Shown one piece after another: positions 5,739 through 45,600 of a stretch of 64,000 nt of DNA. The notes below the pieces were generated by a model. It was given only the letters and a program-made list of their open reading frames with translations, had not been told where the DNA came from and did not search any database. Numbering within the stretch: position 1 is the first letter of the stretch; every line of letters starts with the position of its first letter. The DNA comes from Candidatus Bathyarchaeota archaeon A05DMB-5 (GTDB taxonomy: Archaea > Thermoproteota > Bathyarchaeia > Bathyarchaeales > Bathycorpusculaceae): NCBI GenBank assembly GCA_019685655.1, contig JABFQP010000003.1, forward strand, positions 124,001 to 188,000, in the 5' to 3' direction. A program made the translations under genes and the position numbers.

Positions 5739-7142
5739 ATGAAAGCAAACTGTCATTTAGCTTTCATCACTCGCAAAGTAGTTTCTTGCGTCCTTCTCAT
5801 TGCTATGTTCTTGACTGCTTTCAATGTAGCACCCGCCTTCGCTCAGTCCGAGGGTTCAACCGTTCAAAGTTATGAAAACATAAGTGTAAACACAGCTCAC
5901 AGCATGATAATGAACAGTGCATTCCTAAACCTCGTTATCTTGGATGTTCGATGTCAATGCGAATATGACATAGGGCACTTATACGGCGCAATTCTGGTAC
6001 CCTATGATCAGCTTGAGGCGAGGATTGGTGAGCTTGAGGAATACCGAAACCACGAAATAATAATTTATTGCAGGTCAGGGTACAGAAGTCAAATAGCCTG
6101 CGAAATTCTCGCCGAGTATAACTTCACAGAAGTATACAACATGGTTGGCGGCATCATTGCCTGGATAGAGGCTGGCTACCCAATCTGGACAACATCGCAT
6201 TATGTCACGGTAAACTTTGTGGACGACGAAATTCTGTTGAAGATAGAACCTTTGCTTGTCCGTCTTTCATCTTGCGCTTCATGTGCACAGAATCAGACGT
6301 ATCCAAGCTGTAGCAATCCTTTGAACATAACGTCTACTGTGTTAGAGCAGAGAGAAAATTTCACAAAAATCTTAGTGACGTATGAAGTTAACGGTACCGA
6401 ACGTAATATCACTATTGCTGAAACCATGCTATGGAGTTATAAGGAATCTTCAGATGAAGCTAACAGAACAGTCACCTTTATTTTCACCGAGTTCACTGTA
6501 GATGATTCATCCATGCAATTCTATAGTCTGGACTATCTGGTCAATAGTGTTAATTACAATTTGACAACCCACACCACACTCTTAATCGTCAACACAGAAA
6601 GCTATAACGGCTCATTCACGTTCATTAACTATGCCCCAATAGAAAATTCCGAAGTCAAAACGCTGGAATTCGTCGAGATAAATTCTTCATTGACACTGTC
6701 TCAATTATATGCAGTGTTGGGCAAAGCAGCCAAAGAAATAGGAAAAGTCTACGAGAAAAGCGAAGATGCCAGCGTAATGCCTCTCGCTCAAGCCTACTCC
6801 AGAATGAATGAAGAAGCCAAACATCTCTCTAAACTGGTGGAGAAGCAACTCCTACAATACAACCATAAAATTCTCCATAGCTCAGCAATAATAATGGACA
6901 TGCTGACTCCTGGGGAAGATGGAGGCGGAGCCGGTCCACCTCCACCGCCAGCTGGGGGATGTGGTATAGCATGCTGCTTGGTTTGTGAAATTCTTTGTAA
7001 TGCTTTCCTTGGTGAAGTTTGCATTCTTGTATGCATCTTTACTGCAGGCTTTGCCTGTTGGATTTGTGATTTTCTGGCGACGTATCCGGAACTTGGAGGC
7101 ATAGGTTGCGACCTCTTTTGTCAATACATTGGATGGTGCTGA
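5739..7142 (+). CDS. Secreted rhodanese-domain protein with 12-Cys halocin C8-like tail
   Basis: A 467-residue exported protein. Residues 1-36 are a signal peptide ending AFA-QSEG. Residues 43-152 form a rhodanese domain with DVRCQCEYDIGH and the active-site loop CRSGYR (C111), so a persulfide-type Cys is intact. A middle domain with CASC and Asn-rich, potentially glycosylated segments follows, then a helical region (about 320-390). A GGGAGPPPPP linker (about 395-405) leads to residues 406-467, a hydrophobic tail with 12 cysteines in 62 residues. The tail resembles halocin C8-type archaeocins, which have 10 Cys in 76 residues at the C terminus of a longer precursor. It is followed by two tandem membrane proteins that could give self-protection. 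A non-toxic surface redox protein is the alternative. Confidence 0.75.
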   Translation: MKANCHLAFITRKVVSCVLLIAMFLTAFNVAPAFAQSEGSTVQSYENISVNTAHSMIMNSAFLNLVILDVRCQCEYDIGHLYGAILVPYDQLEARIGELEEYRNHEIIIYCRSGYRSQIACEILAEYNFTEVYNMVGGIIAWIEAGYPIWTTSHYVTVNFVDDEILLKIEPLLVRLSSCASCAQNQTYPSCSNPLNITSTVLEQRENFTKILVTYEVNGTERNITIAETMLWSYKESSDEANRTVTFIFTEFTVDDSSMQFYSLDYLVNSVNYNLTTHTTLLIVNTESYNGSFTFINYAPIENSEVKTLEFVEINSSLTLSQLYAVLGKAAKEIGKVYEKSEDASVMPLAQAYSRMNEEAKHLSKLVEKQLLQYNHKILHSSAIIMDMLTPGEDGGGAGPPPPPAGGCGIACCLVCEILCNAFLGEVCILVCIFTAGFACWICDFLATYPELGGIGCDLFCQYIGWC

Positions 7143-7189
7143 CAACGCTTTTAACAGTCTTCAAGCAAGCATAAACATGAGGGACTAAT

Positions 7190-7702
7190 ATGAGCGAAGA
7201 TGAGCATGGAAGGCTTGGAAAGCCTAAGTGGTGGAGACGCTTCTGGATTGAAGCAGCTATGGGGTCTGTGGTGTGTGTTATACTTTTTACTTTATACTTC
7301 TCAAATTACATCAACTCGTATGTATTCCAACGTGGTATAACTTTAATTTTCTCCATCTTCTGTTCTTATGCATTTGCATACATTGCAATAAAAGTACTCT
7401 CGGAAAAAGACCCATTAAAGCGATATAAAATAGTGTTCGTTTGGGGCGGAGTAACGACATCCATCGGTATCATTTTCTTGGTAAGCATTATACTGCGGAT
7501 TTTGAATTTACCTCCGCTACCTCAACTTCTTGACATGTGGACAGTAATCACCCTCACTGCCGTCATAGCCCCTACCATCGGTGGGCTTCTTGGATACTGT
7601 CTTGGAAAGAGAAGAAATTTCCGACTGCCATTTAAGAAAAACCTGAAACCTCATGAGGGCGAAAAGGTTGCAGAAACTCCGGTGGTGGAAGAGAACCGCT
7701 AA
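7190..7702 (+). CDS. Four-TM membrane protein downstream of Cys-tail protein
   Basis: A 170-residue integral membrane protein with hydrophobic helices near residues 24-42, 47-68, 82-104 and 115-139, flanked by a basic N terminus (KPKWWRRF) and a charged C-terminal tail. It starts at ATG 47 bases after the Cys-tail gene and is probably co-transcribed with it. The next gene is a diverged tandem copy: both have WW near the N terminus and a GKRRN motif after the last helix. I do not recognise the family. The position suggests an immunity or export partner of the preceding secreted protein, which is inference only. Confidence 0.65.
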   Translation: MSEDEHGRLGKPKWWRRFWIEAAMGSVVCVILFTLYFSNYINSYVFQRGITLIFSIFCSYAFAYIAIKVLSEKDPLKRYKIVFVWGGVTTSIGIIFLVSIILRILNLPPLPQLLDMWTVITLTAVIAPTIGGLLGYCLGKRRNFRLPFKKNLKPHEGEKVAETPVVEENR

Positions 7703-8215
7703 GAGTTTCTGGGTTCTTTTCTTTGTGCTACCCTATTTCGTAATATTGATAATTTTGGGCGTGTTAGCCGCTACGGGATTTGCGGAAACACACTTTTTCT
7801 TTGAATACATGATAGTTACAGCCTCACTGATAGCCTTCGCTTATTACATTCGGACCACTTCCTCGCTTGGGCTTTGGAGAGCAATCTGGATAATGGTAGG
7901 CGTAAGTGTTTAGTTAGGTTTCCTATCTTCCTGATTCTAAACTTCCTTTTGATAAGGACTCTAAGCCCAGTTACTGGCTTTCTGATACCTTTCTCCATCA
8001 CCATGGCAACAGCGGTTCTATTAGGAGTTTTTGTTGGAGACCGAATAGGCAAGAGACGCAATTATAGATCAATCATATGGAAAACTACCGAATGGTGGGC
8101 GGGGATGTTAAAGACTTGGTTTTCCGTCTTGACATACTACTCTGATGCAACACAACAGGGAACAAGTTTGATGCGATGGTTTAACCACGTACATCATTTT
8201 CTCAGCATCGCTTGA
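7653..8215 (+). pseudogene. Frameshifted tandem paralogue of the preceding membrane protein
   Basis: Two overlapping frames, 7653-7913 and 7874-8215, together reproduce the plan of the 7190-7702 product. The first gives WWKRTAKSFWVLFF and two helices. The second gives the last two helices ending GDRIGKRRNYRSIIWK, matching LGKRRNFRLPFKK upstream. The frame changes between about 7895 and 7920, so neither part is complete. This is either a genuine frameshift after gene duplication or a sequencing error. The start overlaps the preceding gene by about 50 bases, and no strong ribosome site is seen. The tail past the GKRRN motif (about 45 residues) has no counterpart in the upstream copy. Confidence 0.6.
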
Positions 8216-8583
8216 CAGTTTTAAATGACAGTGTAAACCTAATCCCCCGCACTTACCAATGCGCGCATAAATTTTGCTGTTAGAAAAGTGAACTATCGTT
8301 TAGAATTTAGCTGATGCTTTGCTAAGTCAGAAATTATGGCTAACGTAGAGCATCATTTTCATTTCTTTGACTGTCAAGTAATTAACTCTCTTGAAAGAGG
8401 TTCAACCCAAAATGTTTTCTTGTCAACTATAAAATAAAATCTTGCGGCTAGTTTCTATATGCGCCAAAAACGTGGAATATAAAAACACGCATGTAAACCC
8501 AAGCATTACGTTTATTTTAGTTTTTGCGTGGTGTATCCATAAATCTTAAAGCTCATGTGAACGATGTAATAGTAGGTATTGTA
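8216..8583. other. Intergenic region with tRNA-3'-end-like fragment
   Basis: Contains the 24-base fragment at 8231-8254 and otherwise A/T-rich sequence with no recognisable gene. Sequence around 8500-8520 (ACGTTTATTTTAG) may be the promoter of the flavodoxin gene. Confidence 0.45.
8231..8254 (+). repeat. tRNA-3'-end-like fragment
   Basis: GTGTAAACCTAATCCCCCGC followed by ACTT matches the end of tRNA-Leu (1824-1846), including an identical 13-base block ATCCCCCGCACTT. The 5' half of a tRNA is absent. Together with 5521-5572 it brackets the rhodanese/Cys-tail gene and the two membrane protein genes. Possibly an attachment-site remnant; the match is short, so coincidence is possible. Confidence 0.4.
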
Positions 8584-9051
8584 ATGGTAAAAGTGCTTGT
8601 CGTTTATGAGTCGAAGTATGGCAATACTAAACGTGTCGCAGAAGCAATTGTTGAGGGAATGAACGAAGCTGAAGAAGTAGAAGTTACAATTAGGGAACTC
8701 AAAGAGGTTGACCTTAACGCAATCTCAGCGTATGATGCTATTTTGATTGGTTCTCCAAACCATTTTGGTGGACCAACAAGAGGTATCAAGGGCTTTATTG
8801 ACAAGTTTGGCGAGTTACAGTTGCAAGGGAAAAAATTCGCTGTTTTTGACACGTATATGGGAGGAGATTTTGAGAAAGCCGCGAAGAAAATGGAGAAGCA
8901 AATAAACGAAAAAGTTCTGGGATTAAAACAGATAATTTCCGGGTTGTCAATAAAAGTTCAGGGGATGAAGGGACCTATTTTGGAAGGCGAGTTGCCTAGA
9001 TGCAGAGAGTTTGGACGGAAGATAGCGGCTCAGCTTAAGCTAGGTGGATGA
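8584..9051 (+). CDS. Flavodoxin
   Basis: A 155-residue flavodoxin, a soluble FMN electron carrier. It starts MVKVLVVYESKYGNTKRVAE; SKYGNT (residues 10-15) is the phosphate-binding loop, GSPNHFGG (about 58-65) supplies the first ring-stacking segment, and FDTYMGGDF (about 88-96) the second. The length is normal for a short-chain flavodoxin. An upstream in-frame extension to 8524 lacks family similarity, so ATG at 8584 is preferred. A small membrane protein starts 6 bases after the stop and is probably in the same transcript. The redox partner is not identifiable; pyruvate-type oxidoreductases such as Ior could use it. Confidence 0.9.
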   Translation: MVKVLVVYESKYGNTKRVAEAIVEGMNEAEEVEVTIRELKEVDLNAISAYDAILIGSPNHFGGPTRGIKGFIDKFGELQLQGKKFAVFDTYMGGDFEKAAKKMEKQINEKVLGLKQIISGLSIKVQGMKGPILEGELPRCREFGRKIAAQLKLGG

Positions 9052-9057
9052 TGGAGC

Positions 9058-9441
9058 ATGGTTGAGGGGAAAGTTGAAGGCTCAAGGTTGCAAACCCAAG
9101 GAATCATTCTTGTGGGTGTGCTGTGGCTGCTTCAATCGGTTGGTAGGCTTTCTTTTGCTTTCGTTGGTACGCCCGAAGGAATGGGTAAGTTTTTAGATGT
9201 GCCCATTTCTCCTACAACATCTCAAATATTGTTTGTTATGTTTCTTTTCTTAGGTGTTTGCGGGATTATTGCCGCTTTTGGTGTCTTGGCAAAGCAAAAA
9301 TGGGGCTTTTGGGCTATAATCATGGTTAGCATTGCAACTGTAGCCTTTGACATTTGGGGAATAACACTCCAATACACAGCAGCTCTCGGCTTAATCGTTC
9401 CAGTCATATCAATCTTCTACCTCTACCTTAAAAAATCATAA
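9058..9441 (+). CDS. Four-TM membrane protein
   Basis: A 127-residue membrane protein with four predicted helices (about 16-34, 57-78, 83-100 and 104-124) and a KK tail. The ATG lies 6 bases after the flavodoxin stop, so the two are likely translated from one mRNA. No conserved catalytic motif is visible. It resembles generic small DoxX/DUF-type membrane proteins only in topology, so I give no function. Confidence 0.7.
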   Translation: MVEGKVEGSRLQTQGIILVGVLWLLQSVGRLSFAFVGTPEGMGKFLDVPISPTTSQILFVMFLFLGVCGIIAAFGVLAKQKWGFWAIIMVSIATVAFDIWGITLQYTAALGLIVPVISIFYLYLKKS

Positions 9442-9515
9442 ATGCTAACAAACACAAACTAAAAACTTCTAATATTTACAGTATTTTTTAAATAAGAAAA
9501 AGGGGAATTTGGTTT

Positions 9516-10058
9516 TTAACTGGGTGGCGCTGCAGTTTCTGTTGGATGTTTCATGAAGGCGACAAAGGCTATTATTGCTGCGACTAATGCAATCCAGAAG
9601 CCGAAGGATAGATAGGTCGAATAGTCAATACCCAAGTAATTTCCGCTGGAAAACAGACCCACTGTTGGTCCTGTTCCTAGAAGAGGATTCGAAAGCTCAT
9701 TTTGCAAGCCTACGGCAAAGACTATTATTGCAATCAATGCGAGAACCCCACCACCTAAAAGCAGTTTCTTTCCGAGTGCTGTTACACTGCCGACAATCAG
9801 AAGCACACCACCTATAATGACTAGTGCAAGAGCTGTCCAACTGTACCAAATATTCAATGCGGTTGCTGGAGCTGGAGGATTAGTAAGATCAATTGTCATT
9901 GTCGTTCCCCCTGATGTATAGGTTGCTTTTGCTTGGTACAAGTATATTGAAGCGTCTCCTGACATTCCTGTCGCCGACTGCGCCATTGTCCACCATGGTA
10001 GTGCGATGCTGACGAAAGCCAATATGCCTGCTATTATTCCTATGTAGTTTATTTTCAA
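9516..10058 (-). CDS. Four-TM membrane protein with extracellular loop
   Basis: A 180-residue membrane protein. TTG at 10056-10058 is chosen because AAGGAGAG lies 6 bases upstream on the minus strand; a 24-codon upstream extension is unconvincing. Helix 1 (about 5-24, with LPWW) is followed by a 45-residue polar loop rich in Thr, Ser and Ala, then three more helices (about 70-90, 97-115, 145-170) and a short TETAAPPS tail. The helix-loop-three-helices plan occurs in many archaeal hypothetical membrane proteins. No function can be assigned. It converges with the membrane protein gene ending at 9441. Confidence 0.72.
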   Translation of the reverse strand: MKINYIGIIAGILAFVSIALPWWTMAQSATGMSGDASIYLYQAKATYTSGGTTMTIDLTNPPAPATALNIWYSWTALALVIIGGVLLIVGSVTALGKKLLLGGGVLALIAIIVFAVGLQNELSNPLLGTGPTVGLFSSGNYLGIDYSTYLSFGFWIALVAAIIAFVAFMKHPTETAAPPS

Positions 10059-24206: not shown

Positions 24207-26090
24207 TTAACCTATCTCCTCACATTTTATAGCTTGGTATGGACAAACTGAAGCGCACAATCCACATCCGATGCAAAGTGTTTCATTGATGCTTGCCTTT
24301 CCATCCACCAAAACCAAAGCTGGACAACCCAGCAATTTAATGCATGCCATACAATTCGTGCATTCCTCAGTTATTTTGCAAACCATTATTTTTGCGCCCT
24401 TTCGTCGTCTATCTCTAACAACCATTAAGGCACAAGGAGAACGGAAAACAACTACAGAAGGACCAGAATGCTGTAAGGCTTCCTTCAAAACTGCTGTTGC
24501 CTCTTTAACTTTGAACGGGTCAACAACTCTTACGAATTTTACACCGCATCCCTCAGCAACTTTTTCAATTAGCACCTTCTCGGTCGGAACACCCATGCCT
24601 GTCACGCCTGTTCCTGGGTGTGGTTGATGTCCAGTCATGGCGGTTGCTTGGTTGTCTAGAACGGCTAAGGTTATTTTGTGGTTGTTATAGACGGCGTTAA
24701 TTAGTCCTGGGATAGCTGCATGGAAAAATGTAGAGTCGCCAATAATTCCAATAGTGTCTCTTCCCGTCACTTTGCTTATGCCTTGGGCCATGCTCACGCT
24801 TGAACCCATACACAAGAAGCCATCACCAATGCTTAATGGCGGCGCAAATCCCAAAGCGTAACAGCCTATGTCGTTTGGGTAAACTGCTTTGCCATCCGTG
24901 GCTTTCCTTATCACGTAGAATGTGGCTCTGTGAGGGCATCCAGCGCATAATATTGGCGGTCTGCGCGGCAAATCTTTCAAAACTTCAGCGTATTTTCTGT
25001 CAATCTCTTTGAGGTCTATTGGCAATTTTCTTCTTGTTATCTTTGCTAAGCCAATCACTACCGCGCGTGTAGAAAGTTCGCCGTCTCTCGGAAAATACAG
25101 TGTACCCATTTTTCCATAAATCTTCACGTTTGGAGCGTAATCCTTGGCTATGGCTTTAATTTGCATTTCCAGATAAGGCTCAAGCTCTTCAACAACAACG
25201 ATTTTCTTGTGCTTTCTCAAAAAAGTTCCTATCAGTTTTTCTGGCAATGGATGAGTCATGCCCAGTTTGAGGATGCTGGCGTCTAAATCTAACGCATCTA
25301 TAGCTTCCATGGCGTAGTTGAAGGCTGCGCTTGCGGAGATTACGCCAAGCTTGCCACTTTTGCTTCTGCGCACTATGGTGTTGTATGGTGATGTTTCGCT
25401 GATTTCTTTAGCTTTCTCCGCTTTTGTCAATAGAACAGTGTGCATTGGTCTGGAATTCGCTGGAACCAGATTCATGCGTTTTATGTCTCTGACAAATTCG
25501 CCTTTGAGACTAGGTTTTGTAAGTTTGCCGTAAGTTACTGGTCCGCGTGTGTGACTCACTCGAGTTGTAGTCCTAAGCAAGACTGGAAGCTCTAATTTTT
25601 CGGAAATTTCAACAGCAGAAACTGTCATGTCTTTGGCTTCTTGGGCGTTTGAAGGCTCTAAGCATGGAAGATTTGCGAGTAAAGCGTAAAAACGGTTATC
25701 TTGCTCGTTCTGGGAACTGTAACATTCTGGGTCATCAGCCGTAACGATTACGCATCCGCCTTTTACACCCATGTACGCTAATGTCATAAGTGCGTCTGCA
25801 GCAACATTCAATCCTACATGCTTCATTGCAGAAAGCGACCGCACACCACAGTTTGCAGTTGCCGCAGCAACTTCCACAGCAACCATCTCGTTAATTGAAT
25901 ACTCCATATAAACGCCCGCTTCAGCCGCAATTTCAGAGATGGAATCCGCTATTTCAGACGCCGGCGTGCCCGGATAAGTGGTTACCACGCTTATGCCCGC
26001 TTCTAAGATTCCTCTGGCTATTGCTTCGTTGCCAAGCAAAAGCGCCCGTTTATTTGGCGCATCTTGTAATAGTAAACGTGAATCAGGCAA
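24207..26090 (-). CDS. iorA: Indolepyruvate:ferredoxin oxidoreductase, alpha subunit
   Basis: A 627-residue thiamine-diphosphate enzyme subunit. The N-terminal pyrimidine-binding domain has GNEAIARGILEAG and TTYPGTPASEI. The central TPP domain has GCPHR, ...YPNDIGCYALG, MGSSVSMAQG and GDSTFFHAA with the Mg-binding motif. The C terminus holds two 4Fe-4S clusters: C577, C580, C583, C589 and C606, C609, C612, C616. The start is TTG, supported by GAGGAG seven bases upstream. It works with IorB in aromatic amino acid fermentation. Tryptophanase is encoded divergently, so tryptophan could feed either enzyme. Confidence 0.95.
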   Translation of the reverse strand: MPDSRLLLQDAPNKRALLLGNEAIARGILEAGISVVTTYPGTPASEIADSISEIAAEAGVYMEYSINEMVAVEVAAATANCGVRSLSAMKHVGLNVAADALMTLAYMGVKGGCVIVTADDPECYSSQNEQDNRFYALLANLPCLEPSNAQEAKDMTVSAVEISEKLELPVLLRTTTRVSHTRGPVTYGKLTKPSLKGEFVRDIKRMNLVPANSRPMHTVLLTKAEKAKEISETSPYNTIVRRSKSGKLGVISASAAFNYAMEAIDALDLDASILKLGMTHPLPEKLIGTFLRKHKKIVVVEELEPYLEMQIKAIAKDYAPNVKIYGKMGTLYFPRDGELSTRAVVIGLAKITRRKLPIDLKEIDRKYAEVLKDLPRRPPILCAGCPHRATFYVIRKATDGKAVYPNDIGCYALGFAPPLSIGDGFLCMGSSVSMAQGISKVTGRDTIGIIGDSTFFHAAIPGLINAVYNNHKITLAVLDNQATAMTGHQPHPGTGVTGMGVPTEKVLIEKVAEGCGVKFVRVVDPFKVKEATAVLKEALQHSGPSVVVFRSPCALMVVRDRRRKGAKIMVCKITEECTNCMACIKLLGCPALVLVDGKASINETLCIGCGLCASVCPYQAIKCEEIG

Positions 26091-26239
26091 ACATTTTCTC
26101 CTCAGCGCGTGTAGAAGTCGTTCATTCTTTCGGCTTCAAATATAACTTTTGGTGATTCAACGCGAAAAGCAATCTTGAACCGAAAGAATTATTAAAACGC
26201 GGTTAGGATACACAGCTTTCATTCGTGAGGTTTGTAATA

Positions 26240-27685
26240 ATGTCCATAAAACTGTCTAATGGAAAAGAAATCCCAATTGAAATGCACAAGGCGCGGATGG
26301 TGCAGAAAATTTCTTTGCCACCAGTTGACCAACGTCTCAAAGCCATAGAAGAAGCGGGCTACAACACCTTCCAGCTTAAAACTAAAGACGTGTTTCTCGA
26401 CATGCTCACAGACAGCGGCGTAAACGCAATGAGCGACAACCAATACGCTGCCATGATGCGGGTTGACGACGCTTACGCAGGCAGCATGACCTTTTACGAG
26501 TTCGCAGACGCAGTAAAAGACGTTCTAGGATACAAATATGTAATGAATGTTCACCAAGGAAGAGCTGCAGAACATTTAATCTCCAAAGTGTTCGCGAAAC
26601 CCGGTGATGTGGTTCCGACAAACTATCATTTTACTACAACTAAGGTTCACATTGAATTGACTGGTGGAGCTGCATGCTTAGAAATTTATTATGATGAAGC
26701 GTTGAAAACGGAAAGCATTAACCCGTTTAAGGGCAACATGGACCCACAAAAACTGAAAAACGTGATTAAAAAGTATGGAAAAGAAAAAGTAGCTTACGTG
26801 CGCATGGAAGCAACAACTAACCTTCTTGGCGGTCAACCATTCTCAATGCAGAATCTCAAGGAAATCAAACAAATCTGTAAGGAGCACGGCTTAATTCTCG
26901 TTTTAGATGGAAGCCTAATCAGCGAAAACGCCTATTTAATAAAGCAGCGCGAAAAAGGCTACGAAAACAAAACAGTCGCGGAAATAGTCAAAGAAATGTG
27001 CAGTTACGCTGATATTTTCTACATGAGCGGAAGGAAAAACACGTGCGTCAGAGGCGGCTGCATAGCAACAAACAACAAGGAACTGTTTGAAAAGTTGCAG
27101 CCTTGGCTTCCAGTTTACGAAGGCTTCTTCACTTACGGCGGAATGTCTCAAAGGGAAGTCGCAGCTATGGCTGTTGGAATGCGCGAGATGGTAGACTTTG
27201 ATATGGCTGGTTGCGCAATAGAACAAATAAAATACTTTGTGAATAGACTGAAGGAAACTGGAATTCCAGTGGTTACGCCGCCAGGCGGATTGGCTTGCCA
27301 TTTGGACGCAAAGAAGTTTTTGCCACACATTCCCCAATCAGAATATCCAGCTGGCGCGTTGACAGCAGCACTCTACATTGTTTCGGGTATCCGAAGCATG
27401 GAAAGAGGCACAATTTCAATGGAAAGAGACAAAGATGGAAAGGAAGTCTTCGCGGATTTGGAATTGACTAGGCTTGCGCTTCCAAGAAGAGTCTACACTA
27501 TATCACACATTGAATATGCAGTGGATAGGATAAACTGGCTTTACAAGCACAGAAATTTGGTGAAAGGCTTAAAATTCGTTTTTGAACCGCCAGTGTTGCG
27601 TTTCTTCCTTGGAAAACTAGAAGCCTTAGACAACTGGGGAAGAAACCTAGCTGAAGTATGCAAAAAAGAAATAGGCGACCACTAA
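26240..27685 (+). CDS. tnaA: Tryptophanase / tyrosine phenol-lyase family
   Basis: A 481-residue PLP enzyme of the beta-eliminating lyase family. The Schiff-base Lys is K266 in MSGRKNTCVRGG; DGSLISENA upstream contributes cofactor contacts, and VHQGRAAEH and YEGFFTYGGMSQRE are typical blocks. Tryptophanase yields indole, pyruvate and ammonia; tyrosine phenol-lyase yields phenol. The family as a whole is certain and tryptophanase is the more likely. ATG 26240 follows GTGAGGT at a suitable distance; a GTG five codons upstream is less likely. It is divergent from iorAB, which points to joint control of aromatic amino acid catabolism. Confidence 0.92.
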   Translation: MSIKLSNGKEIPIEMHKARMVQKISLPPVDQRLKAIEEAGYNTFQLKTKDVFLDMLTDSGVNAMSDNQYAAMMRVDDAYAGSMTFYEFADAVKDVLGYKYVMNVHQGRAAEHLISKVFAKPGDVVPTNYHFTTTKVHIELTGGAACLEIYYDEALKTESINPFKGNMDPQKLKNVIKKYGKEKVAYVRMEATTNLLGGQPFSMQNLKEIKQICKEHGLILVLDGSLISENAYLIKQREKGYENKTVAEIVKEMCSYADIFYMSGRKNTCVRGGCIATNNKELFEKLQPWLPVYEGFFTYGGMSQREVAAMAVGMREMVDFDMAGCAIEQIKYFVNRLKETGIPVVTPPGGLACHLDAKKFLPHIPQSEYPAGALTAALYIVSGIRSMERGTISMERDKDGKEVFADLELTRLALPRRVYTISHIEYAVDRINWLYKHRNLVKGLKFVFEPPVLRFFLGKLEALDNWGRNLAEVCKKEIGDH

Positions 27686-40913: not shown

Positions 40914-42257
40914 TTATTTTTTGTGCAGTTTCTGCGCAGCGATGAATGTCAAGCCCTTTTTTGTTAAAGCCTCAGCTGTTCGGTTCACAGCGTCGTGCTT
41001 GTCCAAATAATTACGAAGTAGTTTTGGCATTAACCCTTTTTCAAGGATATCCTTTTTAGGAATGAAATAATCCAAAATGTCTGATGGGTGCTCTCTGTTT
41101 TTGTCAATTTCAGGGATGCCTCCTTCATGTTTGGCGCTTATATTCTTGATGTGGTCTGCTATTTCTAGGAGTTCATTAAGGCGATCGTATGGTTGTCTTA
41201 CAATGCTTTTTTGGGTTTCTACTATGTGGTGTTCGATGCGAACAATGTCCTCGAAGTCGAAGGCTTTTCGAATATAAGCTGAAAGCTCAATTGTCTCGTT
41301 ATTGGCAGAGTTTGAAAGATTAAAGCCAATAAGCGGCGTCGTGCCATCATCTCGGCTAAAAAGTTTTGCAGTCGCCAGCGTCCAAAAGATGAAATAGGGG
41401 TTGTCATTACCTACATAAACCGAGATCTTGAATTCAATATCAACTCCAAGCTTATGCAACAAGTATCCAAGCATAATAGTTCCCGCATTTACATTCAAAA
41501 CTTGCTGAACGCCATACTCTGTATAGTAATAAAGTAATTCGTCAACCCACTTCAAAGCGTGCTCGTTCGGAACGCCAACACCACCAAAATAACCCGTAAT
41601 AGTTTCCGGTCCGCTCAAGTGAACATTTATTGGCTTGCCATCTGGTCCTGGCATAGTTCCTTTAGTATCAAGCGTTTCCACGAAAGAAGCGCCTATAATT
41701 TGCATTGCCGCCATACTTGCAAGCAAATCATCATCTTCCACTTGCTCTTTCATGTTACGAACACGAATATATCTGCCTGGCATGAGGTTTTGCTGCTTTA
41801 TCGCATATTTTGCTTCTTCAATCAGCCATGGGAAAAAGTTGAAGGCACTAATTTCCAATGTCACCGCGAAAGAATCGTCAAACCGCATGGAATCGGCTTT
41901 CTTCCCCAAAATTTTTCTTCTATAGTCAGATATGCTTATGAAGGAGTTTTCGTCGCGCTGCTTAACTAACCATTCAAGGTCCTTAACAAAAGGCGACTTC
42001 TTTTTCTCAAGACGCTTCATCAAGTTTTCAAGCTTGCGGGACTCCCTAGCCTTACGGTTAATCTCTTCCACACCGCCGTATTTTTCAACAAGCGCAAACA
42101 GACCGTTCGTGAGAGGATTATCTTTTCTAAGTAAGAACTCGTTAATTTCTTTCACGCTTTCCTCGTTTATTCGCAATCTTTCCTGAATCTTATCCAAAAT
42201 AGACACTTCCGCATAATCGTTAGTCTTCAGAGACTCTCGCAATTTAAGTATTTTCAC
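40914..42257 (-). CDS. Large cytoplasmic protein of unrecognised family
   Basis: A 447-residue protein with no signal or TM helix. An N-terminal helical region (1-110, charged) precedes a compact domain with strongly conserved-looking stretches: GTMPGPDGKPINVHLSGPET, TGYFGGVGVPNEHALKWVDE, VLNVNAGTIMLGYLLHKLG, ISVYVGNDNPYFIFW and IGFNLSNSANNETI. These read like a TIM-barrel or other alpha/beta enzyme with Gly-rich loops and Asp/Asn residues at strand ends. I do not recognise the family. The gene overlaps the next (surface protein) gene by one base, so the two are co-transcribed, which is odd for an enzyme and a surface protein. Confidence 0.7.
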   Translation of the reverse strand: MKILKLRESLKTNDYAEVSILDKIQERLRINEESVKEINEFLLRKDNPLTNGLFALVEKYGGVEEINRKARESRKLENLMKRLEKKKSPFVKDLEWLVKQRDENSFISISDYRRKILGKKADSMRFDDSFAVTLEISAFNFFPWLIEEAKYAIKQQNLMPGRYIRVRNMKEQVEDDDLLASMAAMQIIGASFVETLDTKGTMPGPDGKPINVHLSGPETITGYFGGVGVPNEHALKWVDELLYYYTEYGVQQVLNVNAGTIMLGYLLHKLGVDIEFKISVYVGNDNPYFIFWTLATAKLFSRDDGTTPLIGFNLSNSANNETIELSAYIRKAFDFEDIVRIEHHIVETQKSIVRQPYDRLNELLEIADHIKNISAKHEGGIPEIDKNREHPSDILDYFIPKKDILEKGLMPKLLRNYLDKHDAVNRTAEALTKKGLTFIAAQKLHKK

Positions 42258-43150
42258 TAAAACTGGAAAAATTGCGTATCTGTTGGCGGCGCAGGTGGTG
42301 GAGGTGCCGAGGGTTCCTCGCCTATGGTTGGCGGTTTTTCAAGTGCTAGTCTTTCTGCTTTCTTCTTTCGGTAAACGTGGACTGCAAGGTATACGAGTGC
42401 AGCTACTACGAGGATGATTGCTGAGTATACGCCTACTGTTAAAGCGTAAGTGAAGTAAGTAAAACGCACATTTGACGTGCTATATATGAATATTACATTG
42501 TAAGAAAGCGTTTTTGGAGAACCCGACTCCACATAATTAACAGTCCAACATTGCCTATCTTCCAACATGAGCCCAGTTTCACGGTCATATATTATCTCAA
42601 GCCTTCCATAATAATCAGCAGGTATTACACTTCCGTAGAGTGTAACGTTTTGGGAACAATTAAATTCAACATCATGCGCCGCCAACGTGTTGAAGAACAT
42701 CCATCCATAACACCTCAAGCCAGAACCAGCCAAAGTAACCGTCCCATTCAAAATTTTTAGCGACTCGCCAACTGCATGGCCCTCGCCAATCCACAAATCA
42801 AGGTATTCACCGTGAGGCGGAATTTCCGGCGTAGGCAAAAGTTCTTCAGCAAAAATTGCTGAGCGGTTGATTAAGCTTACATAGAAGGTCATTGAAGTTG
42901 AAGCTATTCCTCCGGTCCTAATCGTTTCTGTAACTTTAATGTATGTTGCATTGATAATGTCAGCAGTACTCAGCACAAGTTGCCCTTGTACAGAGCCATA
43001 TCCTAGAATGTTTACCGTGTAAGAATACTCAGCACGCAAAAACGGAAATGGCACTGTTTGCCTTCCTATGACGAGTGCGTAGGGAAAAAACACTACTATG
43101 AGAATTTCTGAAAGAATAATGAGGAATATGAAGATTTTACTGCGAGACAT
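42257..43150 (-). CDS. Secreted protein with C-terminal membrane anchor
   Basis: A 297-residue surface protein. An N-terminal signal (about 1-30) is followed by a beta-rich extracellular domain with several Asn-X-Ser/Thr sites and two cysteines, CYGWMFF and FNCSQNV, that could form a disulfide. A transmembrane helix (about 235-258) follows, then a cytoplasmic tail that is basic and then Pro-rich (PSAPPPPAPPTD). The first gene of a two-gene transcript with the unrecognised cytoplasmic protein. Function unknown. Confidence 0.75.
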   Translation of the reverse strand: MSRSKIFIFLIILSEILIVVFFPYALVIGRQTVPFPFLRAEYSYTVNILGYGSVQGQLVLSTADIINATYIKVTETIRTGGIASTSMTFYVSLINRSAIFAEELLPTPEIPPHGEYLDLWIGEGHAVGESLKILNGTVTLAGSGLRCYGWMFFNTLAAHDVEFNCSQNVTLYGSVIPADYYGRLEIIYDRETGLMLEDRQCWTVNYVESGSPKTLSYNVIFIYSTSNVRFTYFTYALTVGVYSAIILVVAALVYLAVHVYRKKKAERLALEKPPTIGEEPSAPPPPAPPTDTQFFQF

Positions 43151-43311
43151 TTGATGTTTATCTCAACTTGATTAAAACGTTACTTCTTCCGTGTAGAAAA
43201 AGTTTACCCAAAAATTAGTTTGCAGAGAAAGTGGCAAATTGTAATGTTATACTCTTCTTTTCAAAGCTTAAATGATATAAATGTATGGTTAACTAGTAGG
43301 TGACGATAACC

Positions 43312-44790
43312 ATGTATAGACCCGAAGGAATCTTGCCCGCTTTAGTCACACCATTCACGGACGATGGAACAGTAGTTGACGAAGAAAGACTACGCGTTTT
43401 AGTTAACCACTGCATTGAGTTAGGCGTTCACGGAGTTGTGCCATGCGGCACCACAGGCGAATTTGTAAACATGACAACAGAAGAGAAAAAACAAGTCATA
43501 AAAACTGTAGTCGACGAAGTCAACGGAAGAGTAAAAGTTGTCGCTGGAACTGGCGCAAGCGGAACAGACCAAGCTTTAGAAATGACAAAATATGCAAAAG
43601 ATGTGGGTGCTGACGCCGTTTTAATCGTGACACCATTCTATTTGAAACCCGCAGACCGTGGAATATACGAACATTACGATACAATCGCCAGTAAGGCTGA
43701 CATGCCAATAATTCTTTATAATATTCCTCAATGCACAGGTTTGCCGTTGCCTTGGCAAATGGTTGAAGACTTGGCTCAAATTCCAAACATAGTAGGCGTA
43801 AAAGACAGCAGCGGACAATTAAACTTCATATTGGCAGTGTTGGAAAAAGTAAGAGACAAAATAAACGTCTTATGCGGACACGACGAAGTGGTTGTGGCAG
43901 CATTAGCTGCAGGATGCACTGGCGCGATTCTTGCAAGCGCAAACGTGATACCCGACATTTGGGTGCAAGTCTACAATCACATTAAAAACGGGGAGTTGCA
44001 AAAAGCCCGCGAACTCCAATATAAGGTGCAGAAAATAGCCAGAATAATTGCTGGAAGTGGAGCAGTGGGCACAAAAGAAGCGTTAAACATGATGAAAATC
44101 AAAGTAGGACCAGTCCGAAAGCCATTAAGCGTAGGTGGCGAGTTAACCTACGAGGCAAGAGAAGAATTACGCTTAGACTTGGAAAAAATAGGAAAAATAA
44201 AGCCTAAAGCAGTAACGTTCGAAATCGCCGAAAAAACAATAGAACAGCGCTTCATGGCAGTAAACATAACGCCAGACATCATAAAAGACTTCAAACTACG
44301 CGTTGGCGAAGCCTTAGCTGGAGGAGGCGCAGAAGTAGCCCACATAGACCTTATCATCGGAAAAAGCGACGGTCCAGTCGGCGAAGCTTTCGCAAAGGCT
44401 AAAGCAGCACCAACACCGGGACACGAGCCACTATTAGCCATTTTGGAACCCAACCTCTCCGTTAAACCAGTAACACTTATCGTTCCAACAGTTACTATTA
44501 CGAGTATGCGTCAAGCGAGCATGGTTTACGGTCCAGCTCAAACAGCAGTTGCGAAGGCAGTGGTTGACAGCGTTGCAGATGGAACTATTCCGAAAGAAGC
44601 AGTTGAAGACTTGATTATCATTGCAAACGTGTTTGTGCATCCCACAGCAGTTGACAGACAAAGAGTGTACATAAACAATTACAAAGCCATGCGTCACGCA
44701 ATCCGCAAGGCAATAGAAGGCAGACCTAACATTGACGAGTTAATAGAGAACAAAGACCGCTCGAAGCACCCATTCAAATACACGCCATAG
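43312..44790 (+). CDS. Fusion: DHDPS/NAL-family aldolase plus formaldehyde-activating enzyme
   Basis: A 492-residue two-domain enzyme. Residues 1-292 are a class I aldolase of the DapA/NAL family: CGTTGEF (about 45-51), ILYNIP with the catalytic Tyr (Y136) and VGVKDSSG with the Schiff-base Lys (K164). The position of the DHDPS Arg that binds the aspartate-semialdehyde carboxylate is Cys (C141 in PQCTG), so the substrate probably differs. Residues about 326-476 are Fae: GEALAGGGAEVAHIDLIIG with the catalytic His (H344), then PGHEPLLAILEPNLSVKP and VFVHPTAVDRQRVYI. Fae condenses formaldehyde with tetrahydromethanopterin. ATG 43312 follows GGTGA; TATA element AATGATATAAATG is upstream. trmI follows 9 bases later. 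Whether it makes or consumes formaldehyde is inference. Confidence 0.92.
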   Translation: MYRPEGILPALVTPFTDDGTVVDEERLRVLVNHCIELGVHGVVPCGTTGEFVNMTTEEKKQVIKTVVDEVNGRVKVVAGTGASGTDQALEMTKYAKDVGADAVLIVTPFYLKPADRGIYEHYDTIASKADMPIILYNIPQCTGLPLPWQMVEDLAQIPNIVGVKDSSGQLNFILAVLEKVRDKINVLCGHDEVVVAALAAGCTGAILASANVIPDIWVQVYNHIKNGELQKARELQYKVQKIARIIAGSGAVGTKEALNMMKIKVGPVRKPLSVGGELTYEAREELRLDLEKIGKIKPKAVTFEIAEKTIEQRFMAVNITPDIIKDFKLRVGEALAGGGAEVAHIDLIIGKSDGPVGEAFAKAKAAPTPGHEPLLAILEPNLSVKPVTLIVPTVTITSMRQASMVYGPAQTAVAKAVVDSVADGTIPKEAVEDLIIIANVFVHPTAVDRQRVYINNYKAMRHAIRKAIEGRPNIDELIENKDRSKHPFKYTP

Positions 44791-44799
44791 TGAATTAAG

Positions 44800-45600
44800 T
44801 TGAAAAAACAAAAAATACGCGAAGGCGACTACATACTCCTCTACTTGAACCAACGAAAAACTTACATGGTAAAAGTTGAAGCTGGCAAAATTTTCCACAC
44901 ACACAAGGGCTTCATAAAATTTGACGACTTAATCGGCAAAGAATACGGCGCGGCAATTATCAGCAGTCTGGGCATTGAATTCGTGGTGTTGAAGCCTCTT
45001 CTCCGCGATTTCATAATGAAGTCAACTAGGCAAACGCAGATAACCTATCCAAAAGACATCGCCCTAATAGTAATGTTCAGTGGAATAGGACCGGGGAGTC
45101 GTGTCATCGAAGCTGGAACCGGCACTGGTGCATTAACAACAGCCCTAGCGCATTATGTCAAGCCAGAAGGCAAAGTTTACAGCTACGAAATCCGAGAGGA
45201 ATTCATAAAAACTGCAGAGAAAAACCTAAAACGTGCTGGTTTAATCGACTTTGTGGAATTAAAAAACAAAGATGTAACAGCTGGAATAGACGAAAATGAT
45301 GTAGACGCTGTGATTCTCGATTTAGCCACTCCATGGCTTGTCATTCCCCACACGTACAACGCATTGAAGCCTTGCGGAACACTAGTCTCATTCAGCCCAA
45401 CAATTGACCAAGTAGTCAAAACCGTTGAAGCTTTAAGGGAAAATTGCTTCGTAGACACAGAAACCATAGAATGTCTAATGCGGGGAATGCAGATAGAAAG
45501 GGGCAAAACAAGACCGCAAACTCTGATGACAGCTCACACGGGATACATAACATTCGCCAGAAAAGCAATTCGCAGTTTCGACGCTTCAGCAAAAGAATAA
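44800..45600 (+). CDS. trmI: tRNA (adenine-N1)-methyltransferase TrmI
   Basis: A 266-residue SAM-dependent enzyme that makes m1A at position 58 (and often 57) in archaeal tRNA. The N-terminal barrel has GDYILLYLNQRKTYMV and GKEYG. The methyltransferase core has ITYPKDIALIVMFSGIGPGS, motif I VIEAGTGTGALT, and VDAVILDLATPW (motif IV, about 168-179). The C terminus has GRTRPQT-like RGKTRPQTLMTAHTGYITFA, diagnostic of TrmI. It starts at TTG 9 bases after the aldolase-Fae gene, an unusual neighbour. Confidence 0.93.
   Translation: MKKQKIREGDYILLYLNQRKTYMVKVEAGKIFHTHKGFIKFDDLIGKEYGAAIISSLGIEFVVLKPLLRDFIMKSTRQTQITYPKDIALIVMFSGIGPGSRVIEAGTGTGALTTALAHYVKPEGKVYSYEIREEFIKTAEKNLKRAGLIDFVELKNKDVTAGIDENDVDAVILDLATPWLVIPHTYNALKPCGTLVSFSPTIDQVVKTVEALRENCFVDTETIECLMRGMQIERGKTRPQTLMTAHTGYITFARKAIRSFDASAKE

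Follow-up and report, generated by a model that had tools for sequence, protein, structure and literature searches.

A fused class I aldolase and formaldehyde-activating enzyme in Bathyarchaeia with a possible link to homoserine and threonine synthesis

In the window, the whole 64,000 nt stretch of the Candidatus Bathyarchaeota archaeon A05DMB-5 contig that was analyzed here, one gene joins a DHDPS/NAL-type aldolase to a formaldehyde-activating enzyme (Fae) domain (Table 1). The gene is a single open frame of 492 codons that runs uninterrupted across both domains, with no stop between them, as a sequence-only reading of this locus had described. The ATG at 43312 agrees with the conserved start of the homologues, and an in-frame GTG lies upstream at position 43300. 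The TrmI-like downstream neighbor was considered and set aside, since its conserved position is probably plain synteny.

Table 1 Features of the fusion locus (positions in the window).
Feature	Position	Strand	Remarks
447-aa partner protein, helices and TIM-barrel-like fold (predicted)	40914..42257	-	no more than 6 kb from the fusion in 33/47 loci
297-aa protein, no Pfam match	42257..43150	-	between partner and fusion here; outside the conserved pair
Aldolase-Fae fusion gene	43312..44790	+	492 aa, stop included in coordinates
Class I DHDPS/NAL-type aldolase domain, residues 1-292	43312..44187	+	Pfam PF00701; alignments to 2yxg and 16 homologues
Inter-domain linker, ~residues 293-330	44188..44301	+	gap between Pfam domains; conserved at codon level
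Fae domain, residues 331-488	44302..44775	+	PF08714/TIGR03126; alignment to 1y5y; comparison with 16 Fae/Fae-Hps
tRNA methyltransferase, TrmI/GCD14-like	44800..45600	+	downstream neighbor conserved in 27 loci

Both halves were recognized by independent profiles. The Pfam family PF00701 (DHDPS) matched residues 5-291 (E 7e-83) and PF08714 (Fae) residues 331-488 (E 2e-63), while in NCBIfam the protein scored 251 bits against dapA TIGR00674 (cut-off 206) and 222 bits against one_C_fae TIGR03126 (cut-off 118). The model of the Fae-Hps fusion, NF009833, gave 183 bits, below its cut-off of 274, with only the Fae part of the model covered; a C-terminal hexulose-phosphate synthase domain was not found in this test, which separates the protein from Fae-Hps. 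We confirm that the gene encodes one protein, a class I aldolase followed by a complete Fae domain, and the fusion that had been proposed from the letters is real.

A single scan of GTDB contigs yielded 49 homologous loci, about 45 of which carry the full-length fusion at 53-90% identity, so the further genomes that the sequence-only reading had suggested listing are numerous. Nearly all loci with the fusion are labeled Bathyarchaeota or Bathyarchaeia (L038 is labeled Thermoproteota only), and two assembly copies are damaged, by frame-shifts in L047 and by one TGA in L032. The fusion occurs in at least 41 of 163 Bathyarchaeia genomes, a count verified in part, and no full-length copy was found outside Bathyarchaeia among 398 sampled Thermoproteota genomes. 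One genome, G016, was dropped from the carriers, its second Fae standing in a frame without an aldolase domain. The possibility that an artefact of assembly or gene calling joined two separate genes, which had been named as a potential refutation, is practically ruled out by these copies in independent assemblies, among them closed chromosomes, by the conserved linker and by the grouping of the fusions in one clade.

Nucleotide differences between the homologues concentrate at third codon positions in the aldolase, the linker and the Fae part, with a several-fold excess over first and second positions in both domains. Together with the conserved linker, this excess indicates that purifying selection keeps the two domains in one frame. 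When aldolase domains were placed in a maximum-likelihood tree, a branch with 100/99 support separated all 36 fusions from 10 stand-alone relatives, a pattern that agrees with a single origin of the fusion. The Fae-domain tree, with few outgroup rows and long branches, gives nothing about origin. In L043 the aldolase-Fae genes are duplicated in tandem (6782-8176 and 8181-9683), the first copy having a shortened Fae domain that lost the AHID histidine.

The aldolase domain has the hallmarks of the class I Schiff-base DHDPS/NAL superfamily, namely the KDxSG lysine, the YNxP tyrosine and the GTTGE threonines, and its catalytic residues Thr47/Thr48, Tyr110, Tyr136, Lys164 and Gly189 align with those of the Methanocaldococcus jannaschii DHDPS 2yxg. 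K164, Y136, T48, Y110 and G189 are invariant in an alignment of 16 diverse homologues, which bears out the earlier statement that Tyr136 and Lys164 are in place. The position of the DHDPS arginine after YNxPx, Arg in 2yxg, is occupied by Cys141 in the fusion and by Cys, Ala, Leu or Val in every fusion homologue read, a departure from true DHDPS; four stand-alone archaeal relatives in other genomes retain the arginine. This residue (Arg138 in E. coli) is the one that we take to bind the carboxylate of aspartate semialdehyde (ASA) in true DHDPS, and its absence indicates that the acceptor of the aldolase is not ASA. If the protein were an ordinary lysine-pathway DHDPS to which a Fae had been joined by chance at the C-terminus, it would share the fold, the Schiff-base lysine and the catalytic Tyr and Thr, and the dapA score above the cut-off would be explained. 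We regard this reading as very improbable, given the missing ASA-binding arginine and the lack of true Asd, and hence of an ASA source, in 28 of the 31 carriers compared below as well as in the host. The fusion further differs from DapA (TIGR00674) by the C-terminal Fae itself.

The Fae domain aligns over its whole length with the Methylorubrum extorquens Fae 1y5y, including the histidine of the AHID motif, so the catalytic His claimed from the sequence stands. Comparing 43 fusion rows (one degenerate L043 copy excluded) with 16 Fae and Fae-Hps sequences, we found that 43/43 fusion rows retain His344 and Gln410, along with most of the positions that are invariant in Fae. However, Thr393 is present in all 43 where the 16 others have Lys, the conserved active-site lysine of Fae (Lys66 in Fae-Hps numbering), and E372, N455, H462 and R471 are further invariant, fusion-specific differences. 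Judged by these residues, Fae activity is likely, and Thr393 and the changes at positions 372, 455, 462 and 471 keep it from being assured. The same changes, which include Lys-to-Thr and Tyr-to-Asn, would also fit a Fae-like domain that has lost Fae chemistry and instead binds a different ligand or has a regulatory role, attached to a keto-acid aldolase with an unrelated specificity; the L043 copy without its AHID histidine would fit this too. This alternative seems unlikely to us in view of the conserved His344 and Gln410, the domain score far over the Fae cut-off and the presence of the H4MPT-pathway gene Mch in nearly all carriers.

The closest known protein is Fae-Hps (PRK13307/NF009833), a bifunctional 5,6,7,8-tetrahydromethanopterin hydro-lyase/3-hexulose-6-phosphate synthase, which likewise joins Fae to an aldolase with formaldehyde as C1 substrate or product. 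The logic is the same, but the aldolase is different: that of Fae-Hps is an Hps of the OMP-decarboxylase fold, the domain order is reversed, with Fae first, and the Fae of the new fusion is a clearly distinct subfamily with Thr393 in place of Lys. The sole other Fae of the host is a Fae-Hps fusion. In L050 (G000:C1:274428-274904) and other Bathyarchaeia, Fae-Hps is extended at the N-terminus by ~100 residues, part of which resembles a helix-turn-helix (SGTAQILNIHRDTLYAWL...).

Since an aldolase that makes or breaks 4-hydroxy-2-oxobutanoate (HOB) might change the homoserine metabolism of its carriers, we compared pathway genes in 61 Bathyarchaeia genomes, 31 with a verified fusion and 30 without one. 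Homoserine dehydrogenase was found in 1/31 carriers versus 29/30 non-carriers (Fisher p 4e-15, although the shared ancestry of the genomes means that such p-values do not represent independent trials), true Asd, counted only at ≥139 bits, in 3/31 versus 27/30, and homoserine kinase (ThrB, or TIGR02535 above its cut-off) in 3/31 versus 29/30. The H4MPT C1 marker Mch is near-universal (28/31 versus 30/30). PanB showed no comparable loss in carriers (11/31 versus 3/30); this ketopantoate hydroxymethyltransferase is absent from 47 of the 61 genomes, with and without the fusion alike, and with so patchy and not inversely linked a distribution, replacement of PanB (formaldehyde + 2-oxoisovalerate to ketopantoate) was rejected as the main role of the fusion. 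By genus, homoserine dehydrogenase occurs in 1/25 with the fusion and 18/18 without, and the contrast holds inside families f1 (0/10 versus 11/11) and f4 (0/4 versus 3/3), so it does not reflect one ancient split.

The lone exception among the 31 carriers is G159, whose assembly measures 3.1 Mb and is 5% contaminated. Among 27 named fusion genomes, which partly overlap the 31, seven have homoserine dehydrogenase (L012, L014, L032, L034, L036, L038 and L042, the last being G159), so the fusion does not exclude this gene absolutely. Five of these seven branch deep in the fusion tree, and it is possible that the fusion was acquired first and homoserine dehydrogenase lost later. Both known homoserine kinases are absent from most carriers, which leaves one step unaccounted for, and in family f6 the downstream route is incomplete, as a convincing threonine synthase is mostly absent there.

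Gene order provided a second link to threonine synthesis. In G146, whose genome lacks homoserine dehydrogenase and true Asd, the fusion, homoserine kinase (NF002288, 298 bits, cut-off 194) and threonine synthase (376 bits, cut-off 167) follow each other consecutively on one strand; this operon was found in a single lineage only. The genome G077, which has no fusion, carries the order ThrB-ThrC-HomDH-aspartokinase, and G020 and G154 retain homoserine kinase and threonine synthase but no homoserine dehydrogenase. A PLP gene downstream of the fusion in L022/G130, assigned by clustering to threonine synthase, proved to be a relative of threonine/hydroxyaspartate ammonia-lyase and was discarded. 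A threonine-synthase-like PLP protein of G127 (L215:3056-9692) lies amid carbamoyltransferase and carbamate-kinase-like genes, so that some of the ThrC-family matches in the genomes compared may be catabolic. A DUF39/methanogenesis-marker-16-like protein with a ferredoxin, a type that we take to be linked to homocysteine synthesis from ASA, is found close to the fusion in G019 and close to the ThrB-ThrC-HomDH genes in G077 (L081:7848-9725, L080:4409-6365). In family f23, the gene directly downstream of the fusion encodes a methylthioadenosine-phosphorylase-like protein or an MTA/SAH-deaminase-type amidohydrolase (L040:9578-10438, L041:7911-8819, L121:3719-4573, L122:1999-3432), a hint that the fusion may be connected with methionine/SAM recycling.

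At about even probability, we propose that the fusion builds HOB from pyruvate and Fae-supplied formaldehyde and feeds homoserine and threonine synthesis. The Fae domain would exchange formaldehyde with (methylene-)tetrahydromethanopterin (H4MPT), freeing or holding it; the Schiff base of Lys164 with pyruvate would give an enamine that attacks formaldehyde, and HOB would leave. An unspecific aminotransferase could then convert HOB to homoserine, and homoserine would go on to threonine and possibly methionine, replacing the route through aspartate, ASA and homoserine dehydrogenase, while the joining of the domains would keep the pool of free formaldehyde small. The HOB-aldolase activity (pyruvate + formaldehyde/HOB) is suggested by genome context, and we likewise infer which substrates the enzyme uses, in which direction it runs on balance and that HOB is transaminated. 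In engineered E. coli the sequence from pyruvate and formaldehyde through HOB and homoserine to threonine works, and each step after formaldehyde has a precedent there with other enzymes (PMC8879981). The proposed chemistry is that of the synthetic homoserine cycle, with its HOB aldolase and HOB aminotransferase, but the cycle was engineered with the promiscuous RhmA and free formaldehyde (PMC8879981), whereas in the fusion the class I aldolase is a natural one and would be coupled to H4MPT by its Fae domain.

The direction of the reaction is the weakest step of this proposal. The missing homoserine dehydrogenase and Asd and the fusion-ThrB-ThrC operon favor synthesis; the link to formaldehyde and HOB drawn in the sequence-only reading is thus kept as the best chemical reading, but not its emphasis on an aldolase that releases formaldehyde for capture by Fae, as the gene losses and the operon favor C1 supply to the aldolase. 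Synthesis is further consistent with the conserved Schiff-base lysine, Tyr and Thr, the lost ASA arginine, ThrB/ThrC without homoserine dehydrogenase in G020 and G154 and two threonine-synthase-family genes above a cut-off in the host. Against it stand the homoserine dehydrogenase in 7/27 carriers, the mostly absent kinases, the threonine synthase gap in f6, the restriction of the operon to one lineage, Thr393 in place of the Fae lysine and a possible auxotrophy of the host.

This last point is a serious confounder of the gene losses. In the host genome, which has the C1 marker Mch, tblastn found no aspartokinase, Asd, homoserine dehydrogenase, ThrB or DUF39-type homocysteine gene, nor any convincing HisG/A/B/F/H or CarB (carbamoyl-phosphate synthase). 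The window holds an indolepyruvate ferredoxin oxidoreductase alpha gene (24207-26090, minus strand) beside a relative of tryptophanase/tyrosine phenol-lyase (26225-27685, plus strand), and with these genes the host looks like a peptide or amino-acid fermenter; the missing His genes, CarB and aspartokinase together with the fermentation genes mean that general auxotrophy could explain the losses. A fermentative host may leave room for a catabolic role, in which the aldolase splits HOB or a close relative to pyruvate and formaldehyde, Fae loads H4MPT for the Wood-Ljungdahl methyl branch and the loss of the aspartate-family pathway merely reflects a peptide-fermenting lifestyle. The absent biosynthetic genes and the two fermentation genes of the host fit this role, as do the genes for 2-oxoacid:ferredoxin oxidoreductase or aldehyde ferredoxin oxidoreductase that some lineages carry close to the fusion, and the precedent of Fae-Hps, in which an aldolase is combined with formaldehyde capture. 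We nevertheless consider it rather unlikely in view of the operon in G146 and the retention of ThrB/ThrC without homoserine dehydrogenase in three lineages; an environmental source of HOB or homoserine is also not evident. Alternatively, the fusion could act as a formaldehyde sink with no role in homoserine synthesis, condensing formaldehyde from Fae-Hps or methyl metabolism with pyruvate to HOB. Formaldehyde is indeed expected in the host, since Fae-Hps is its second Fae, but a sink would leave unexplained both the ThrB-ThrC operon and the tendency of the fusion to occur in other genomes than homoserine dehydrogenase and Asd, and we think it quite improbable.

The best neighborhood signal of the fusion is the 447-aa partner protein, which had no match in Pfam, NCBIfam or PDB sequences. 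Like the lost arginine of the aldolase and Thr393 of the Fae domain, this conserved neighbor had escaped the sequence-only reading. Across the 33 of 47 loci the two genes are arranged divergently, codirectionally or otherwise. The long form occurs in 37/163 Bathyarchaeia genomes, and among those checked only G132, a MAG of 86% completeness, is without the fusion (G032, G089 and G161 stood outside this one-by-one check). A shorter relative in other lineages (profile-profile E 5e-5 to the long form) lies directly upstream of the fusion on the same strand in L023, L029, L043, G134 and G030. The AlphaFold model of the 447-aa protein starts with helices and continues as an alternating barrel of eight strands; a Foldseek search with it gave no match at E≤0.001 and weak similarity to generic TIM barrels (MTHFR, DHPS, glycosidases), and the model of the shorter relative is poor. 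The long and short families share FK(I/V)S and GxxNP motifs, and distant relatives (L042:9595-10638, L043:5721-6677, L084:9715-10644) have no library match.

The earlier remark that no fusion of Fae to a DapA-type aldolase is established agrees with the searched open literature, where no paper names DHDPS and formaldehyde-activating enzyme together, an absence that is no proof of novelty. A survey of archaeal fusions mentions neither formaldehyde nor DapA in its main text (PMC11237513). The usual homoserine genes are mostly missing from the carriers, which suggests that homoserine and threonine are made there from pyruvate and a one-carbon unit by a natural pathway not yet described. Somewhat more tentatively than the function itself, we suggest a natural aspartate-independent pathway, fed by HOB made from H4MPT-bound formaldehyde, tied to the archaeal Wood-Ljungdahl methyl branch and possibly involving a new TIM-barrel-like enzyme family. 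The presence of Fae in Bathyarchaeia has so far been taken to indicate that formaldehyde or methanol is used. In a large share of cases, however, these genes are aldolase fusions whose distribution runs counter to the usual homoserine pathway, and the uncultured archaea that bear them are a widespread group. If the proposal is true, nature would have its own version of the synthetic homoserine cycle, known until now only as an engineered pathway; amino-acid synthesis would be connected to the Wood-Ljungdahl methyl branch, and there would be a simple reason, open to testing, for which automatic reconstruction would call many such archaea threonine auxotrophs.
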